Source: Piscirickettsiaceae bacterium
GTDB lineage: Bacteria > Pseudomonadota > Gammaproteobacteria > Nitrosococcales > Methylophagaceae
Direction of reading: 5' to 3'
Assembly: GCA_024685975.1 (NCBI GenBank)
Contig: JAIBDZ010000011.1
Location: 1 to 47,857, forward strand
DNA: 47,857 nucleotides
Position numbers and translations under genes: made by a program. Of this stretch, positions 1,838 through 9,710 are shown piece after piece. Under the pieces are notes generated by a model that was not told the origin of the DNA, made no database searches, and saw only the letters and a program-made list of their open reading frames with translations. Position 1 is the stretch's first letter, and every line of letters begins with the position of its first letter.

Positions 1838-2434
1838 TTAACTGTGCGCTAAGATGTAGCGGGCTACGCCAGTTAAAGAGTTTGTTTGTTTATTTTGGAT
1901 ATAACGCGCAACGCCTGTCATTGGCTTATCTAAATTTTTAATGTAGCGCGCAACACCGGTTAGCGGTTTATCTAAATTTTGAATATAACGTTCAACACTT
2001 GTGGCAGACGACGTTGTTGTTTGAGCTAAATTACGAATATAGCGTTCAACACTCGTCACACCATGACAACGTGCTACTTTCTTTTGAATATATTGTTCGA
2101 CAGAAGTCATATTCTGATTGCTAGCAAGCTGTTTCTGAATATAGCGTTCAACACCTGTCATTGCTGTTTCTTGTGTTTCAAGTTGAGCAATATACTGAGC
2201 TACTCCAGTCATCATAGCCTCAGTTTTTTCAGTCACAGTATTCACTGCTTCTTGTAATTCTTCGACAATAGTGTCGACAGCCTCATGGGCAGTATCTGCC
2301 ATGCTTTTTTCAGCAGAAGGTGTGGATTTAGTTTGAGTTGCTTGTGTTTGTTCCGCTGAATCTTGTTGTGATTTTGAACAAAATAAGCCGTTGAATAAAC
2401 TGCAAATCGATGAAAAAAAGCCTTTCTCACTCAT
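1838..2434 (-). CDS. Unrecognised protein with eight TGVxRYI-type repeats
   Basis: I do not recognise this 198 aa protein. Residues 1-20 hold hydrophobic patches and two cysteines (C11, C19). Residues 21-74 are polar, rich in Q, T, S and E. Residues 75-198 are eight copies of T[GS]V[AE][RQ]YI, with the threonines at 76, 93, 110, 127, 145, 159, 173 and 188, so the spacing runs 17,17,17,18,14,14,15. The last copies share an NLDKP linker. No clear signal peptide, nuclease, kinase or membrane domain is visible. It lies between hps copy 2 and tal on the same strand, with a gap of 190 bp upstream and 114 bp downstream. A perfect 8-bp hairpin (1809-1830) follows the stop but has no T run. A scaffold or multivalent binding role is only inference. 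Confidence 0.8.
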   Translation of the reverse strand: MSEKGFFSSICSLFNGLFCSKSQQDSAEQTQATQTKSTPSAEKSMADTAHEAVDTIVEELQEAVNTVTEKTEAMMTGVAQYIAQLETQETAMTGVERYIQKQLASNQNMTSVEQYIQKKVARCHGVTSVERYIRNLAQTTTSSATSVERYIQNLDKPLTGVARYIKNLDKPMTGVARYIQNKQTNSLTGVARYILAHS

Positions 2435-2624: not shown

Positions 2625-3266
2625 TTAAGCAGCATCAACTAATGCGCGTAATTCTTTAGCTGATTCTGCTGGAGAATCTGCACCGTAGATAGCAGCACCA
2701 ACAACAACAATTGTTGCACCAGCGCGAACAGTATCTTGGATTGTATCTTTGTTGATACCACCAGCAACAGAGATGCGAACACCTAAGTTAAGGTCTGCAA
2801 CCATTTTAAGATCAGCAAATGGTGTTTGACCTGCAGCTTGTGCGTCAAGACCAGTGTTAACACCGATGATTTGAGCGCCGTTAGCAGCAGCTTCAGTTGC
2901 ACATTTCGCTTTATCTTTAACACTGATTAAGTCGATTTGAGCTTCAGCATTGTTAGCATTAGCTGCTTTAATAACGCCGCCCATTGTTGCTTTATCAGAT
3001 ACACCTAATACTGTGCAGATGTCGCCGCCTGCTTCGTAGAAAGGTGTTGCTTCGTATTCACCAGCATCCATTGTTTTAAGGTCAACAAGGATTAATTTTT
3101 CTGGGAATTTTGCTTTCAAAGCTGTAACGAGTTCTAGACCGTTATATTTGATGCAAGGTGTACCGATTTCTAAGATGTCAACATAAGGTGCTACTTGCTC
3201 TGCAAGTGCGATTGTTGCATCAAAATCTAGAGAATCTAAAGCCATTTGAATAAGTGCTTTTGCCAT
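2625..3266 (-). CDS. hps: 3-hexulose-6-phosphate synthase, copy 2
   Basis: Complete 213 aa formaldehyde-fixing enzyme of the RuMP pathway (HPS/KGPDC family, a TIM barrel that uses Mg). Visible blocks are MALDSLDFDAT near the N-terminus, EIGTPCIKYNG, DLKTMDAGEYEAT (catalytic/metal region) and the C-terminal phosphate-binding stretch SVAGGINKDTI with GATIVVVGAAIYGA. Start 3266 has AGGAG 9 nt upstream. It is highly similar to copy 1 and shares with it at least one 55-nt identical block (353-407 and 3039-3093). It has a strong promoter upstream and a terminator downstream, so it looks like a single-gene unit. A 6-phospho-3-hexuloisomerase partner is not in the window. Confidence 0.96.
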   Translation of the reverse strand: MAKALIQMALDSLDFDATIALAEQVAPYVDILEIGTPCIKYNGLELVTALKAKFPEKLILVDLKTMDAGEYEATPFYEAGGDICTVLGVSDKATMGGVIKAANANNAEAQIDLISVKDKAKCATEAAANGAQIIGVNTGLDAQAAGQTPFADLKMVADLNLGVRISVAGGINKDTIQDTVRAGATIVVVGAAIYGADSPAESAKELRALVDAA

Positions 3267-3457: not shown

Positions 3458-4288
3458 ATGACAAAAATTGATAACTTGTCTGGTTTGATTATTGATATGG
3501 ATGGTGTGTTATGGCATGGAAACCAAGCAATGGTGGGATTGGTTGATTTCTTTTCTTGTTTGCGTGAACAGGCGATACCGTTTGTATTAGCGACCAATAA
3601 TGCCAGTCTGACCCAGCAACAATATATTGATAAACTCGCCCAAATGGGAGTAACAGTTTTGGCCAAAGAGGTACTGACATCAAGTATGGCAACTGCGACC
3701 TATCTGGATGAGCATTTTCCCAAAGATAAGCGCCGCGCTTATGTTATTGGTGAGGCAGGGTTAACCGAGCCATTGCAAGCGGCAGGATTCACATTAACCG
3801 ATGTATATGAAGTCAATGGCAATGGTGACGCCGTTGGCGCTGATCTTGTTGTGTCTGGATTGGATAGGACGTTGACGTGGGATAAATTATCGACAGCGAC
3901 ATTACATTTGAATCAAGGTGCTGCATTTTATGCGACCAATTCAGATAGTACATTGCCGACAGAGTTAGGCGATATGATGGGCAATGGTGGCACTTTAGCA
4001 GCGCTGGAAGCGGTGACAGGTCAAAAACCAATCAGTATTGGTAAACCGGAACCCATTTTGTATCAACAAGCATTATCGGTGTTAGGGACAACGGCGGATA
4101 ATACGGTCGCGATTGGAGATCGATTAAATACGGATATTTTGGGTGCTGTAAAGGCTGGATTGCGGAGTATTTTGGTGTTAAGTGGTATTTCTGATCGAGA
4201 TGAACTGGAACACATAGATTATGCTCCGACATGGATAATGCAGGATATTAATGACATTACTGCTATTTTGCGAAATAACAGACATTAA
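3458..4288 (+). CDS. HAD-IIA (NagD-like) phosphatase
   Basis: A 276 aa cytoplasmic haloacid-dehalogenase-superfamily hydrolase of the NagD/phosphoglycolate phosphatase type. Motif I is DMDGVLW with D13 (nucleophile) and D15. Motif II is ATNNAS, the motif III lysine lies in SIGKPEP, and motif IV is GDRLNTDILGA. The cap sits between motifs II and III, as in subclass IIA. The substrate cannot be read from sequence. It is followed after 21 bp by dhaK in the same direction, so a sugar- or triose-phosphate substrate linked to dihydroxyacetone metabolism is a reasonable guess. No clear Shine-Dalgarno precedes ATG 3458, but the reading frame matches the family start. Confidence 0.85.
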   Translation: MTKIDNLSGLIIDMDGVLWHGNQAMVGLVDFFSCLREQAIPFVLATNNASLTQQQYIDKLAQMGVTVLAKEVLTSSMATATYLDEHFPKDKRRAYVIGEAGLTEPLQAAGFTLTDVYEVNGNGDAVGADLVVSGLDRTLTWDKLSTATLHLNQGAAFYATNSDSTLPTELGDMMGNGGTLAALEAVTGQKPISIGKPEPILYQQALSVLGTTADNTVAIGDRLNTDILGAVKAGLRSILVLSGISDRDELEHIDYAPTWIMQDINDITAILRNNRH

Positions 4289-4309
4289 CGTTAACGTGGA
4301 GAAAAAGTC

Positions 4310-5293
4310 ATGAAAAAATTAATGAATGATGCTGACGATTTATTATTGGACAGTTTACGCGGCTTTGCACAAGCACATAAAGACGTTGTGCAATTAAATG
4401 AACAGCCTTTATTCGTCAGTCGCCGCCAAGCAGCTAAAGCGGGCAAAGTGGCTTTAGTCTCGGGTGGTGGGGCTGGTCATGAACCGTTGCATACCGGTTT
4501 TGTCGGCCAAGGCATGTTAGATGCCGCTTGTCCCGGACAGGTTTTTACTTCACCAACGCCAGATCAAATGTTGGCCGCAGCAGAAAGTGTTGATCAAGGG
4601 GCTGGCGTATTATTTATTGTCAAAAATTATGCTGGTGATGTGATGAACTTTGAAATCGCAGCCGAAATGTTTGATGGTGAGAATGCCTCAGTTTTAGTCT
4701 GTGATGATGTGTCATTACCCAAAACCCATAGTACTGGGCGGCGCGGTGTTGCTGGGACATTGATTGTCGAAAAAATAGTCGGGGCTGCTGCTGAGAATGG
4801 CGACGATCTTGCGACTTGCCAAGCATTAGGCACACAAGTTAATCAACAAACAGCGTCGATGGGCGTGGCATTGACGAGTTGTACGGTGCCAGCATTAGGT
4901 CGCCCGACGTTTGATATCGCTGAGGATGAAATGGAAATGGGCGTCGGCATTCATGGTGAACGTGGGCGTGAGACGGTTCCATTGGCATCAGCGAAAGAGA
5001 TTGTGGCGGATATCGCTCAAACGATTGAGTCTGAACTGGCCTTAAGTGCTGGTCAACAAGTGTTATTGCATGTGAATGGCTTTGGCGGAACACCCGCCAT
5101 GGAGCTCTATGCGGTTTATGAGATGGCTGCGAAATACCTTGCTGAACGCAATGTTGAGGTTGTCCGCTCATTAGTCGGTAACTATACAACGTCACTGGAT
5201 ATGGCCGGGTGCTCTATCACTGTAACAGTGATGGATGAGATGTTATTGAAATTGTGGGATGCCCCAGTACAGACTGCCAACCTACATTGGTAG
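4310..5293 (+). CDS. dhaK: Dihydroxyacetone kinase subunit DhaK
   Basis: Binds dihydroxyacetone covalently for phosphorylation to DHAP. The 327 aa protein has the substrate-binding signature GVGIHGERG with H215, the histidine that forms the hemiaminal with the ketose. It also has GGGAGHEPLH with H57 and KNYAGDVMNF with D110, matching the E. coli DhaK pocket residues. The start has AGAAAAAG-type purines and matches the family start. It is probably co-transcribed with the HAD gene upstream. The nucleotide-binding subunit gene dhaL lies convergently 5 bp past the stop instead of in the same operon. No DhaM, HPr or EI gene is visible, so the phosphate donor (ATP or PEP) is not settled here. Confidence 0.94.
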   Translation: MKKLMNDADDLLLDSLRGFAQAHKDVVQLNEQPLFVSRRQAAKAGKVALVSGGGAGHEPLHTGFVGQGMLDAACPGQVFTSPTPDQMLAAAESVDQGAGVLFIVKNYAGDVMNFEIAAEMFDGENASVLVCDDVSLPKTHSTGRRGVAGTLIVEKIVGAAAENGDDLATCQALGTQVNQQTASMGVALTSCTVPALGRPTFDIAEDEMEMGVGIHGERGRETVPLASAKEIVADIAQTIESELALSAGQQVLLHVNGFGGTPAMELYAVYEMAAKYLAERNVEVVRSLVGNYTTSLDMAGCSITVTVMDEMLLKLWDAPVQTANLHW

Positions 5294-5298
5294 CGATG

Positions 5299-5928
5299 TT
5301 AAGGTTTAGACAATTCTTTGGTGATGGCACAAATAATGAGCTGACTGGTTTTTGCTCCTGCATCAATATGCCCAATAGCGCGTTCTCCTAAGAAGGAGGC
5401 GCGGCCTTTGGTGGCAATCATACTTTTAGTCGATAACATGCCTGCGATGGCTTGCTCTGATAAGTTGTTGAGTAAATATGCGTACTCAATACCATTGTCA
5501 TTATCATCTTTGAATCGGTTGGCAACGGGAATCAACGTGTCCAACATGGTTTTTTCACCTAGATTGGCTTTACCTCGTTGCTTGACTGCTTCGACGCCTT
5601 GGCTAAACATGTCCGATGCCGTGTTTCGATCCATGGTTTTATCTTTGGCGGCTTTTGCCATGCTGATAAATAGCGTGCCATAAAGCGAACCTGACGCACC
5701 GCCCATGGTTGACATGAGTACCATACCTATCTTTTTTAAGGCATCAGACCAGGTTTCAGCTTCGCCTAACTCTGTTTCTATTGCTTTTAATGCGGTTAAT
5801 CCACGTTGTAGGTTCACAACGTGATCTCCATCACCGATAGCGCGGTCTAGCTCTGCGACTTCATCAGCATTGTCAGTAATCACTTCTTGAATGGCATCAA
5901 GAAATCGAGGTATTAACGCAGTCGTCAT
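5299..5928 (-). CDS. dhaL: Dihydroxyacetone kinase subunit DhaL
   Basis: Nucleotide-binding subunit that works with DhaK. The Mg-nucleotide motif LDRAIGDGDHVVNLQRG keeps the three aspartates of the family D-x4-D-x-D pattern. GGASGSLYGTLF is the second phosphate loop. The usual DHG after the aspartates is DHV here. The open frame begins at a GTG at 5940, but that codon directly abuts its AGG. ATG 5928 has AGGG about 11 nt upstream and is preferred, giving 209 aa. The gene is convergent with dhaK, so the two subunits need separate promoters. With no dhaM near, an ATP-dependent two-subunit kinase is possible but unproven. Confidence 0.9.
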   Translation of the reverse strand: MTTALIPRFLDAIQEVITDNADEVAELDRAIGDGDHVVNLQRGLTALKAIETELGEAETWSDALKKIGMVLMSTMGGASGSLYGTLFISMAKAAKDKTMDRNTASDMFSQGVEAVKQRGKANLGEKTMLDTLIPVANRFKDDNDNGIEYAYLLNNLSEQAIAGMLSTKSMIATKGRASFLGERAIGHIDAGAKTSQLIICAITKELSKP

Positions 5929-6031
5929 ATTGGATGTCACCCTATTGTCACAATGTCAGTATTATTCATTAATTTTGATGAATAAAAAAGCCTTAGCGCT
6001 TCTTTTTGTGATTTGTTAAAAAATAGGTCAT

Positions 6032-6086: not shown

Positions 6087-6707
6087 TTAAGCGGCGTTTT
6101 TTGCTTTACGTCGCATGCCCATAAAACCTAATAATGCTGGTGCGAATAATAAAGCCGCAGCAGGGACGGGAACTGCATTAGGCATATTCGCAGCAGTAAA
6201 ACTCATATTATCCCAGAGCATGCCTTCAATGGTTACTGAAAGCGGCGTGAAAAACAGAATGCTGAAAATGGGTTGTGAAGAAGAGGCTAATAATGGGTGA
6301 TTATCGGTGCCAGTTGATGTACCAAACTGTTCGTCAAAATCAAGTAGGGTACCGACAGCATCATATGCTTCGATACGAGCACCATTGGCGCCAACATTTA
6401 ACGCTCTAATGCTAAAATCGGTAATACCAAAATCAAACGTAGCAACGATAGGGTTACCTACTTTAGGGCTATAAATATCTTGTCCGGCATCGCCGTTGCT
6501 CACTAATTTCAACCCACCTGCGCCTACAAGCGCTTCGTCTGGAGAAATAAAGTCATCGTAACGGGCGTTAGAAAAGTTTACACCTAGCGCACTATATTGA
6601 TTGGTGATTGATTGGCCATCAAGACCATCATTAAAGTCGATTGTTGTGGCATTAACATTGAAGCTGGCGGCTAAAAGCGCCGTTAGTAATATGATATATT
6701 TTTTCAT
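6087..6707 (-). CDS. Exported VPxPA/PEP-CTERM protein
   Basis: A 206 aa protein of unknown role. It has a Sec signal peptide (MKKYIILLTALLAASFNVNA) and a C-terminal sorting signal: VPVPAAALLFAPALLG, a short hydrophobic helix, then the basic end MRRKAKNAA. This is the VPLPA/PEP-CTERM type recognised by exosortases. The body (about 20-180) is rich in beta-type segments, starts TIDFNDGLDGQSI and resembles other secreted beta-sandwich PEP-CTERM proteins. The open frame extends upstream to 6752, but ATG 6707 has AAGGA 8 nt upstream and begins the signal peptide. No exosortase gene is in the window. Confidence 0.88.
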   Translation of the reverse strand: MKKYIILLTALLAASFNVNATTIDFNDGLDGQSITNQYSALGVNFSNARYDDFISPDEALVGAGGLKLVSNGDAGQDIYSPKVGNPIVATFDFGITDFSIRALNVGANGARIEAYDAVGTLLDFDEQFGTSTGTDNHPLLASSSQPIFSILFFTPLSVTIEGMLWDNMSFTAANMPNAVPVPAAALLFAPALLGFMGMRRKAKNAA

Positions 6708-7001
6708 GTCATTTTCCTTTGAGTTAGAAAATGCAACCCAGCCATCTTTCAATACTCAATACAAAGACCCGTGGTTTTCCGTCACTTGATTCACATCATG
6801 GTTGGCTTTAGTTAATTAATATAGACTGTTAAATTATTAACAACCTGAAAATAATTTAGCATATAAAATAGTTAAGGTATAGCAGTGATGATGGCCTATA
6901 GATTGAATAAAGGCCACTTATGACTGAGCTTTATTTAATCCCCACTGTTTTTGCTGTTAAATGGTTTAAATACGTTGTTTATATAGGCATCAGAGGAGAC
7001 T
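6708..7001. other. Intergenic region, about 294 bp
   Basis: AT-rich spacer upstream of the VPxPA-CTERM gene and downstream of the TPR gene. It presumably holds the promoter of the former. I looked for a sigma-54 (GG-N10-GC) element and found none. There is a loose GGCC repeat pair (6894-6914) after the TPR stop, too weak to call a terminator. No small ORF stands out. Confidence 0.5.
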
Positions 7002-8663
7002 TTATTCCGCTGATTGTGCACAAAAACAAGATGCACCGATAACACGATCGGCTCGTGCTTCTGCTAAGGCTAATCGTTGCGTGATTAATCGACCCTCAGC
7101 GGTCTCTTCTAAGCCTTTGGCAACTAAACAATCATTTAAACCTCGTAAGCTCCAAACATTGTCCGGATGAATTTGTGCTCGGTTTAAGTTGCCGCCAAGT
7201 CCGAGATCTTCACGGTAGACGGTTTCAGCTTCATCAACGCGACCTTGTTCAAACAACAATGCGCCCAAGGCATGGCGGGTTGGCTGCATCCAGCCCCAAG
7301 GTTCATCGTAAGGTAGCGCGTCTTCTTTTTCGATAGCATCACGTAAATGTTGGAAAGCAACATCATAGTTGGCTTTACGATATTCAATCTCACCTGCAAG
7401 CATCGATTCTGCGACTTCCAGTTGTTGATGGCAGGTCACATTATGTAATAACCGAGATGGCGGCATACGATCGCGGGCTGCCAAGAAATGGGTTTGCTGT
7501 TGTTCGGCTTCGGTGACTTCGCCACGAGCGGCATGGGCGACGCCTTTTGCATAGTGCAGTGTCGCGGTAAGGTTGGCGAATAGTTCGCTGTCTTCTGGGA
7601 GGGGCTCTGCGATGATTTGTTGCCAACGGCCAAAGCGAATTAAAACATGTACCCAGACGGCTATATAAGCTTCAAAATAATCAGCGAAAGGGGGAGAGTC
7701 GATACGTAAGAAATCTTCGGGCGTGACGGTGACCAGTTCACGTGCAGCCGCCCAAGCGGGTTCAAACTGACCTAAGAACATCGCGCCATAAGCGGCGAAG
7801 TGATAATTATGTAAACGGTAACCGCTATAGAAGGTATAGAGTCCGTTTCGTTCTAATGCTTTCCTATCGGCTTTAATTGCTTGTTGATTCCAATGCAAGG
7901 TGTTGTGATAGTGACCGCATTGGATATCGATATGTGTCGCCATGTGAATCAAGTGCCCAGCATCGGGTACTAATGTGCGAAGGGCATCCCCTGCTTTTAA
8001 TGCTTTTTCAGGGAAAGGGGACATTTCCATTAAATGCACGTAAATATGTAGAAGACCGGGATGTTGCATCGCTTCAGGGTGATCTTTGAATGCCGATTCG
8101 AGTATGGATTGGGCGGCTAAGGTATCAGCTCCCTCAGCAGGTTCGCCAGTGGCAATATTCCACATCAGCCAAGGTGTTTGATTCATGATGGCTTCAACAT
8201 AGATCATCATCACATCTAAATCATTTGGATAGGTTTCGTGAACGACTTTCATGGTATGAGCAAAGTCGTCGTTCCAGCTACGCATGATATCGATTTCAGT
8301 TGGGTCACGTTGTGGATAACGCTGTGTTAAGGCTTCAATCAAGGCACGTTCAGCTGGACTGGTATTCTCAATCAGCGCCATTGCCGCTTGTGTTGCATCG
8401 TAAGCGATAGCAAGGGAGTCGCGGCGCATATTGTCATCTCGCAACTGCCAAGGCATATTGTAGTTTGGCCCTGCGGCATAAGCGATACCCCAATGGGCCA
8501 TGGCGCAATTGGGATCGGCTTCTAATGCTTTAGTAAAACAGGCGATGGCTTCGTCGTGAAAGTAGGAGTAACACCAAACTAAGCCGCGATTAAACCACAA
8601 TTGTGCTTCTGTTGATGTTGTCGTTACCTGACGTTCATAAACATCGATATCGTAGTAATCCAC
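7002..8663 (-). CDS. Large TPR-repeat protein of unknown function
   Basis: About 553 aa, soluble, no signal peptide. The first TPR-like pair is clear near the N-terminus: WFNRGLVWCYSYFHDEAI followed by CFTKALEADPNCAMAHWGIAY. Further helical repeats follow, including one near LGALLFEQGRVDEAETVYRE. The C-terminus has a CFC pair. TPR proteins scaffold protein contacts; no catalytic motif is seen. Start choice: the frame opens at 8720 and has an ATG at 8684 without a Shine-Dalgarno. GTG 8663 has GAGGAG 6 nt upstream and is preferred, but 8684 cannot be excluded. It is flanked by long non-coding stretches and looks like a single-gene unit. Confidence 0.8.
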   Translation of the reverse strand: MDYYDIDVYERQVTTTSTEAQLWFNRGLVWCYSYFHDEAIACFTKALEADPNCAMAHWGIAYAAGPNYNMPWQLRDDNMRRDSLAIAYDATQAAMALIENTSPAERALIEALTQRYPQRDPTEIDIMRSWNDDFAHTMKVVHETYPNDLDVMMIYVEAIMNQTPWLMWNIATGEPAEGADTLAAQSILESAFKDHPEAMQHPGLLHIYVHLMEMSPFPEKALKAGDALRTLVPDAGHLIHMATHIDIQCGHYHNTLHWNQQAIKADRKALERNGLYTFYSGYRLHNYHFAAYGAMFLGQFEPAWAAARELVTVTPEDFLRIDSPPFADYFEAYIAVWVHVLIRFGRWQQIIAEPLPEDSELFANLTATLHYAKGVAHAARGEVTEAEQQQTHFLAARDRMPPSRLLHNVTCHQQLEVAESMLAGEIEYRKANYDVAFQHLRDAIEKEDALPYDEPWGWMQPTRHALGALLFEQGRVDEAETVYREDLGLGGNLNRAQIHPDNVWSLRGLNDCLVAKGLEETAEGRLITQRLALAEARADRVIGASCFCAQSAE

Positions 8664-8930
8664 GGCATGCTCCTCGTTAAACATGACTAGAACTCTATTC
8701 GGTAGGTGAGTAAAAGGCAAGGTGAGTAATTATACGATCTTGACATAATTAATCCGTTCTTCACTTGAGCTATGACATCTAACCGTGTTGACGAAAGGGG
8801 GGTATTAGAACTTTAAATAAAGCAGACAGTCATTCTTAAGTAGGCTTGGAAAGTCAATCAATGTCGGATTTGAGTTGATGGAACAATTCGGGCTCTTTTA
8901 TTTGTTCGATTACAGACACCAAGAGGCTCT

Positions 8931-9710
8931 ATGAGAATTCCCGTTTTACTGTCGTTTTTGTCCACACTACTTTTCAGTCATTCTATTGTTGCTGACGAAA
9001 TGGTGGGCTCCAGTACCATAGATGCACCACTAGGCAAACCAAAAGTGATTATTTTTGATGTTAATGAAACGTTACTTGACTTAGAGGCCATGCGCCAGTC
9101 TGTTGGTCAGGCATTGGGCGGTCGCGAAGACTTGTTGCCATTATGGTTTTCAACTATGTTGCATCATTCTTTAGTGGTCTCAGCTGTTGAGGATTACGAA
9201 AGTTTTGGCAGTATCGGTGTCGCTGCTTTACAAATGGTGGCAGAAATACACCATATTGATATTAGTCAGGAAGAGGCTAAAACAGCTATCTTAACGCCAT
9301 TACGCTCATTACCGGCACATGCCGATGTTGCAGAAGGCCTAGCAAAATTAAAAGCGCAAGGTTATACCTTGGTCACGTTAACAAATTCGTCTTCTAAAGG
9401 TGTTCATTTGCAGCTAGAGAATGCAGGATTGAGTCAATATTTTGATGCGAGTTTAAGCATCGAGTCTGTCGGTGTTTTCAAACCGCATTTGAGGTCGTAT
9501 CGATGGGCACTTGAAGAGCTAGGTATCAGTGCTGATGAGGCTTTAATGGTCGCAGCACATGGTTGGGATATTGCCGGTGCAAATAAAGCGGGATTACAAA
9601 CCGCTTTTGTACGCCGTACTGGTAAAGTGCTTTTCCCCCTTGCAGAGCAGCCAGATTATGATGTGGCCAATATCAAGGATTTGGCGAATACATTAACTAA
9701 ATTTCGATAA
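8931..9710 (+). CDS. Exported haloacid-dehalogenase type II-like protein
   Basis: A 259 aa HAD hydrolase resembling (S)-2-haloacid dehalogenase. Motif I is IFDVNETLLD (nucleophile D), motif II is TLTNSSSKG, the lysine lies in VFKPHLRSY, and motif IV is VAAHGWDIAGA. These fit the type II dehalogenase group, although its S-x-N positions are A-x-H here, so true dehalogenation is uncertain. Unusually, the protein starts with a Sec signal peptide (MRIPVLLSFLSTLLFSHSIVA), placing it in the periplasm. AAGAGG lies 4 nt before ATG. About 210 bp of apparently non-coding DNA (8721-8930) precede it, and a strong terminator follows. Confidence 0.82.
   Translation: MRIPVLLSFLSTLLFSHSIVADEMVGSSTIDAPLGKPKVIIFDVNETLLDLEAMRQSVGQALGGREDLLPLWFSTMLHHSLVVSAVEDYESFGSIGVAALQMVAEIHHIDISQEEAKTAILTPLRSLPAHADVAEGLAKLKAQGYTLVTLTNSSSKGVHLQLENAGLSQYFDASLSIESVGVFKPHLRSYRWALEELGISADEALMVAAHGWDIAGANKAGLQTAFVRRTGKVLFPLAEQPDYDVANIKDLANTLTKFR

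Follow-up and report, generated by a model that had tools for sequence, protein, structure and literature searches.

A family of repeat proteins that is unnamed in Pfam and NCBIfam is linked to formaldehyde fixation in two gammaproteobacterial groups, and the protein described here, REP, is the tip of that family. REP is encoded on the minus strand at positions 1838–2434 of the window (the whole 47,857-nucleotide stretch of DNA that we analyzed), and genes of this family adjoin hps in nearly every Methylophaga-type locus that we examined and in most of the hps loci that we retrieved from methanotrophs. We consider it moderately probable that REP serves the ribulose monophosphate (RuMP) pathway as a multivalent docking scaffold anchored at the membrane, and that the client it would dock is most likely 3-hexulose-6-phosphate synthase (Hps).

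In the mechanism that we propose, REP would be held at the inner membrane by either an amphipathic N terminus (in Methylophaga and the soluble methanotroph forms) or a transmembrane (TM) helix (in the other methanotroph forms), and its flexible chain would bear 2–19 copies of a ten-residue helix, TGV[AE][KR]Y[IL], in which the threonine would serve as N-cap and V, Y, and I/L would lie on one face. Each repeat would dock one enzyme subunit, most likely of Hps. In this way Hps, perhaps together with Hpi, transaldolase (Tal), and transketolase (Tkt), would be packed in a membrane-bound layer or cluster at the site where formaldehyde from the periplasmic methanol dehydrogenase would enter and be fixed before harming the cell. 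Such a protein would bear on the question of how RuMP organisms keep formaldehyde low with their central carbon flux running through it. Engineers have so far fused Hps and Phi or scaffolded them by hand; a natural scaffold would explain the low formaldehyde and would also supply a tag of about ten residues for synthetic methylotrophy.

Eight copies of a short motif in a protein encoded between hps and tal

The REP open reading frame, as judged from the ORF list and the family of relatives, starts with ATG and encodes 198 amino acids. A preliminary description of this DNA had reported eight copies of T[GS]V[AE][RQ]YI, spaced 14–18 residues apart behind a polar linker and a cysteine-bearing N terminus, and an exact regular-expression search bore this out, with eight matches at residues 76, 93, 110, 127, 145, 159, 173, and 188 (spacings of 17, 17, 17, 18, 14, 14, and 15). 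The array that they form spans 119 residues (76–194), however, rather than the 124 originally given. In order, and all on the minus strand, the copies read TGVAQYI (2189–2209), TGVERYI (2138–2158), TSVEQYI (2087–2107), TSVERYI (2036–2056 and 1982–2002), and TGVARYI (1940–1960, 1898–1918, and 1853–1873). Chance or a low-complexity artefact does not account for them: none of 100,000 shuffles of REP contained even one copy of the motif, and the reversed motif was found in 0 of 4764 ORFs from methanotroph hps regions, versus 110 for the motif itself. Pairwise comparison of the copies gave a mean of 3.1 synonymous and 1.5 non-synonymous differences in 7 codons. Copies that differ this much are not a fresh DNA duplication, and the excess of synonymous over non-synonymous change speaks for selection acting on the protein motif.

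Ahead of the repeats lie a polar linker (residues 21–75; 2210–2374, minus strand), which varies among relatives in the family alignment, and an N-terminal segment, MSEKGFFSSICSLFNGLFCS (residues 1–20; 2375–2434, minus strand), which is predicted to form an amphipathic helix and which we propose as the membrane anchor. The hydrophobic moment of residues 5–18 was equaled by just 0.06% of shuffles; that of residues 1–18 was equaled by 10% and is not exceptional. The segment contains two cysteines, of which only the first is nearly invariant in a 27-row family alignment, where the nearly invariant columns are K, S, C, F, F, S, and S in this segment and T, V, E, Y, and I in the repeats.

Four genes share the minus strand in the order hps–REP–tal–hps: hps1 (2625–3266; TIGR03128, 1.7e-71, above the cut-off), whose product is the proposed main client, REP itself, the transaldolase gene tal (740–1723; TIGR00874, 3.2e-139), and hps2 (1–580), which is truncated at the window edge. 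The position between hps and tal, for which the preliminary description had given no strand, was confirmed with Pfam and NCBIfam on both neighbors. No shell protein or Rubisco was found among the named neighbors of REP in the window. At 3458–5940, a HAD-type phosphatase gene and split dihydroxyacetone kinase genes (Dak1, 4310–5293, plus strand; Dak2, 5299–5940, minus strand) flank the RuMP genes, and HAD phosphatase/Dak clusters were found again in most of 26 loci from relatives. Further along (6087–6752, minus strand) is encoded a protein with a signal-like start and the C terminus VPVPAAALLFAPALLGFMGMRRK, which we take to resemble a PEP-CTERM sorting signal.

REP in Methylophaga-type genomes

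The genome to which the window belongs (1.62 Mb in 23 contigs, 67.6% complete) contains a second locus, on contig C3, with the order hps–REP–tal–hps–hpi and a different REP, also with eight repeats. Matches to REP were found in 31 of 59 relatives' genomes, all in family f1 (which makes up 36 of the 59), and in none of the 23 genomes of other families; in some f1 genomes the match was a long open frame only. Among the 26 relatives' loci that we fetched, REP lay directly upstream of tal in every one (in L059, tal is fragmentary). In 24 of them it also came immediately after hps, the exceptions being L046, in which the contig starts there, and L061, in which hpi stands in between. In 33 named Methylophaga-type loci (a set overlapping with the 26, from records titled Methylophaga, Piscirickettsiaceae/Methylophagaceae, or something less specific), tal followed REP in all 33 and hps preceded it in 32; the remaining locus, L110, begins past that point.

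The layout common to these proteins is a short amphipathic N terminus, a linker, and an array of repeats, with the C terminus usually only a few residues past the last repeat. Repeat number ranged from 2 to 8 among the 27 aligned sequences, and two of the proteins (L060 and L061) had just two repeats.

Related proteins near hps in methanotroph-type genomes

A profile search with REP across a class sample of 369 genomes yielded one strong match outside f1, in genome G288, where two tandem copies of a gene for a protein with 12–13 TGVxKYL repeats stand immediately upstream of hps. A shorter repeat protein with a membrane-type segment is encoded there between transketolase and transaldolase. We sampled 121 genomes of the same order, which we infer to be the Methylococcales and label methanotroph-type because 93 of the 121 contained the pmoA family (PF02461). 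The variant of the motif in this group is TGV[AE][KR]Y[LI]. The exact pattern was present in 83 of these genomes and hps in 92, with at least one match in 80 of the 92 hps-bearing genomes and in 3 of the 29 hps-free genomes. In one of these three (G478), the arrays begin less than 700 bases from two contig ends, so hps may be missing from the assembly. This tally counts as positive G422, the sole f187 genome with any match, whose seven matches (contig C1, ~8131–8956) have the same letters and spacing as seven matches of G408, a genome from another family, and which we therefore read as probable contamination, or else very recent transfer.

For 86 of the 92 hps-bearing genomes (all but G176, G424, G444, G492, G506, and G515, with some genomes contributing one of several hps), we then retrieved the sequence around hps, 100 regions in total, and REP was found within 5 kb of hps in 78. 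By family, the fractions were 49/51 in f169 (the other two regions reach a contig edge), 2/2 in f185, 1/1 in f186, 26/37 in f137, and 0/9 in f187. All 110 of the REP ORFs near methanotroph hps shared the strand of hps. In a hand count over 13 genomes with complete match lists, 73 of 92 exact motif matches lay no more than 10 kb from an hps; G176 was excluded from this count because the hps copies near its arrays are broken by frame changes. The preliminary description had proposed such a search for the repeats, and in both groups they stay near hps, with tal as the direct neighbor in the Methylophaga-type loci. What it had said of the repeat array holds; it had missed the methanotroph relatives, as well as the membrane anchors and the copy in a ChpA-like kinase described below.

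Not every RuMP genome has REP. It was missing near hps from 8 of the 33 fetched genomes of f137, and from all 9 fetched f187 genomes, each of which contained hps; REP is therefore not required for the RuMP pathway. In G415, one hps locus (L227) was without REP and another had it. G462 was negative by our first regular expression, yet a TRV-type TM protein is encoded directly upstream of its hps.

Two candidate membrane anchors ahead of the same repeats

The 108 distinct methanotroph REPs near hps fell into two architectures: 66 had a hydrophobic, TM-type segment before the repeats, and 42 did not. (The former class comprised 50 of 108 when a periplasmic-type regular expression was applied and 66 of 108 without it; we used the 66.) Many of the TM-type proteins have a signal-like start ending in AxA and a periplasmic-type motif such as YPAADFEPxVIYQD, followed in order by the hydrophobic segment, a positively charged stretch, and the repeats. 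Of the 50 REPs with the periplasmic-type motif, 47 were richer in K and R after the hydrophobic segment than before it, and because this puts the positive charge on the repeat side, the repeats are expected to lie in the cytoplasm, with Hps. The 42 segment-free proteins contained 4–19 repeats by exact regular expression, and many start with a short F/L-rich stretch, such as MTTSSLMNSLFGFLF or MANLFERMF, that is reminiscent of the Methylophaga N terminus. Two different anchors may thus have been joined to the same repeats.

The motif tracks hps

In the class sample, hps scored above the cut-off in six of the 369 genomes (G000, which contains the window, G011, G013, G030, G176, and G288). The exact TGV pattern was matched more than once in ten genomes, five of them hps-bearing; in the other five (G083, G133, G179, G268, and G340) the matches were on different contigs. 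More than one match on a single contig was found in five genomes only, all hps-bearing, and the sixth hps-bearing genome, G011, had TSV-type arrays. Arrays were thus present in 6/6 hps-bearing genomes and 0/363 others, in a search that quite different spellings would escape. Weak profile matches in G069, G169, and G254 (E 0.0016–0.009) fell in loci without any ORF containing two copies of the motif. The preliminary description had named, as an outcome that would count against its scaffold idea, homologs lying mostly elsewhere than beside RuMP genes or occurring in non-methylotrophs. The opposite was seen: among the 369 genomes sampled, arrays occurred only in those with hps.

Methane monooxygenase can be set aside as the driver of this distribution. 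In families f179, f184, and f188 (23 genomes), pmoA was present in 16 genomes, and neither hps nor the motif was found. Because genomes with pmoA but without hps were also without the motif, it is hps and not methane oxidation that the motif follows.

REP status follows Hps type

We built a tree of 150 distinct Hps sequences. Of the 22 from loci scored as REP-negative, 16 grouped in one clade (support 0.93), which comprised the f187 sequences together with those of G429, G437, G449, and G465 and was separate from the Hps that are linked to REP in either group. The other six came from G462 (with its TRV-type REP), the second hps of G415, and G456, G485, G497, and G503, the last four on a long branch. 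By these placements, genomes with the other Hps type lack REP, and in the four REP-less genomes that group with the REP-linked sequences Hps is changing fast. The deeper branches were poorly supported (0.37 and 0.20), and ancestry confounds the link to Hps type. At position 108 (in the numbering of the window's hps1 product), Glu was found in 136 of 136 REP-linked Hps sequences and in 26% of 23 others; A142, A191, and S198 also separated the REP-linked sequences. For these comparisons, L196 and L197, whose regions reach contig ends, were removed from the negatives of the residue comparison (they were retained among the 100 regions), and G462 was retained among both the 23 and the 22 negatives. 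E108 might contact the motif's basic residue, which we regard as only a hint, confounded as it is by ancestry.

Hps is the most likely client, as the repeats go with hps and with the type of Hps and not with tal, tkt, or methane monooxygenase. Gene order by itself cannot decide between Hps and Hpi, Tal, or Tkt, and a rather unlikely alternative is that REP binds one of the latter three, or bridges several enzymes, with Hps not being the docking site. In its favor, tal was the direct neighbor of REP in each of the 33 named loci, and in f169 the REPs lie ~2.6–3.5 kb downstream of hps, adjoining tal or tkt. Transaldolase and transketolase are common housekeeping enzymes, however, and no arrays were found in the 363 hps-free genomes; moreover, REP status follows the type of Hps.

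AlphaFold models also bear on the choice between Hps and Tal. We made two runs with read-through chains of one Methylophaga locus (L095), in which the stops were bridged. In both chains each repeat was modeled as a short helix, giving five helices (the N-terminal one and four repeats), with low confidence. The block-mean pLDDT of the repeats was 51–66 in the chain with Hps and 33–39 in that with Tal, compared with ~24–32 and 25–28, respectively, for the junk linker and ~37 and 29 for the N-terminal helix, both of which differed little between the two chains. The comparison therefore leans, weakly, to Hps over Tal, at a confidence for the repeats that is still low with Hps, and it is confounded by the order of the chains (REP last or first) and by the failure as a whole of three of the five Tal-chain models (mean pLDDT 35.7–38.4).

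Other carriers of the motif

The motif also occurs outside REP. In the genome containing the window, a 1,905-amino-acid ChpA-like kinase (contig C10; locus L063, 12742–18459) with Hpt, HATPase_c, CheW, and receiver domains has seven or eight copies of TSVERYI in its linker. Long open frames with the motif were found in 15 genomes of the 59-genome search of relatives, with domains checked in the kinase's own genome. In methanotroph genomes, REP-like proteins were encoded away from hps at L272, L273, L274, L275, L283, L285, and L286. Three of these (L272, 4879–5655; L285, 4861–5628; and L286, 4700–5449) combine a short N-terminal segment and TGV repeats with a conserved Cys/His-rich C terminus of the pattern CQA..GTQC..N.....C..H, possibly a zinc site; the two that we scanned (L272 and L285) had no Pfam match above the cut-off.

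A pure Hps tag does not explain the motif in the kinase and in these hps-distant proteins. One alternative, which we consider improbable, is that the motif is a self-associating or membrane-organizing helix (forming a homotypic condensate or organizing internal membranes) and that its link to hps reflects co-expression only. The many REP forms that share the motif within a genome are what a common homotypic sticker would produce, a ChpA-like kinase could join the same assembly, and PYCO1 shows that repeat linkers can demix alone (PMC10288592). Against self-association stand the Methylophaga-type REPs with only two repeats, and it leaves the tie to Hps type unexplained. Also improbable, in our estimation, is that the motif docks onto a common adaptor and that REP senses or regulates RuMP flux or formaldehyde, which would suit the repeat-filled kinase linker and the Cys/His-rich segments of L272, L285, and L286 but not the lack of any enzymatic or sensory domain in REP in our Pfam and NCBIfam scans, nor a copy number of 2–19, which suits a scaffold better than a switch.

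A docking scaffold can accommodate the additional carriers. In the Chlamydomonas pyrenoid, variants of the Rubisco-binding sticker are described in other pyrenoid proteins (PMC10288592); because the pyrenoid also shares one sticker among several proteins, the extra carriers of our motif are compatible with the scaffold model, though not predicted by it. The preliminary description's idea of a scaffold for Hps or other RuMP enzymes is thus supported in part, by the genomic linkage to hps and tal and the confinement to hps-bearing genomes.

Relation to known scaffolds

Scanning the window's REP against Pfam and NCBIfam returned 24 and 16 families, respectively, at E up to 1, all under their cut-offs. 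For five methanotroph REPs, the nearest family was U1snRNP70_N (with L218), at 23 bits against a rounded cut-off of 23, with no single stretch passing. Phycobilisome linkers (Glr2806 and Glr1262, from the PDB) were considered as relatives and rejected, as they matched at E 0.046 and 0.28, in stretches of no more than 6 bits.

By layout, REP would work like the pyrenoid linkers EPYC1 and PYCO1, an analogy that makes it neither a relative of theirs nor a member of a known scaffold family. The likeness to EPYC1 and CsoS2 drawn in the preliminary description accordingly stands for the arrangement, a flexible chain bearing a multivalent helical motif, and falls for the sequence. Like REP, with its spacing of 14–18, EPYC1 and other proteins with Rubisco-binding motifs carry short helical stickers at even intervals along a flexible chain; unlike EPYC1, REP is bacterial, has another motif and no sequence link that we could find, and has as its proposed client Hps, for formaldehyde, instead of Rubisco. 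The sticker TGV[AE][KR]Y[IL] differs from the Rubisco-binding motif. CsoS2 of alpha-carboxysomes has multivalent repeats on a flexible chain and is encoded beside the genes of the enzyme that it gathers; it additionally binds a protein shell, whereas REP has no Pfam or NCBIfam match to such a family. PYCO1, of the diatom pyrenoid, is a disordered repeat protein whose aromatic stickers bind the carbon-fixing enzyme and which demixes on its own (PMC10288592); its stickers are KWSPR and GTGYNP, compared with TGVxKYL in REP.

Hps and Phi have been fused or placed on synthetic scaffolds with the aim that we propose for REP, namely faster capture of formaldehyde through holding RuMP enzymes close to one another. 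Those are engineered or fused, whereas REP would be a natural, separate scaffold with a membrane anchor. Natural Hps–Phi fusions exist as well (NF041755), and PMC8879981 cites a scaffold-free assembly for the use of methanol. The literature that we searched contained no match to any of six motif spellings and no report of scaffolds, metabolons, or condensates of RuMP enzymes. In the passages that we consulted, papers on the Methylococcus RuMP cluster give hps, phi, tal, fba, and tkt, with REP absent (PMC8527097, PMC517821), and a Methylophaga thiooxydans proteome study names hxlA and hxlB and not REP (PMC6548844).

Soluble REPs correspond in layout to EPYC1, and TM-REPs to the membrane tethers of the pyrenoid. 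Older biochemistry describes the Hps of Methylococcus capsulatus as particulate, to which we give no weight here. How tubules are tethered to the Rubisco matrix of the pyrenoid is a topic of PMC10680556. A more ambitious extension of the scaffold model, which we put forward tentatively and think somewhat less likely to be true than false, is that gammaproteobacterial methylotrophs and methanotrophs build a pyrenoid-like Hps compartment for fixing formaldehyde. It would lie at the inner membrane or an intracytoplasmic one, with soluble REPs of up to 19 stickers as crosslinkers and TM-REPs as tethers, and the periplasmic parts of the latter could face the formaldehyde-making enzymes. If so, bacteria would have their own equivalent of the pyrenoid, which had arisen for formaldehyde rather than CO2, and the pyrenoid's multivalent-sticker solution would have been reached for another carbon-fixing enzyme too. 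Proteins with TGV repeats did not reach the gathering cut-off (70 bits) of the Pfam family Diatom pyrenoid component 2 (PF25195); its weak scores were 18.7 bits (E 0.0024) for a TM-REP (L200, 7015–7605) and 16.7 bits (E 0.0099) for the L272 protein.
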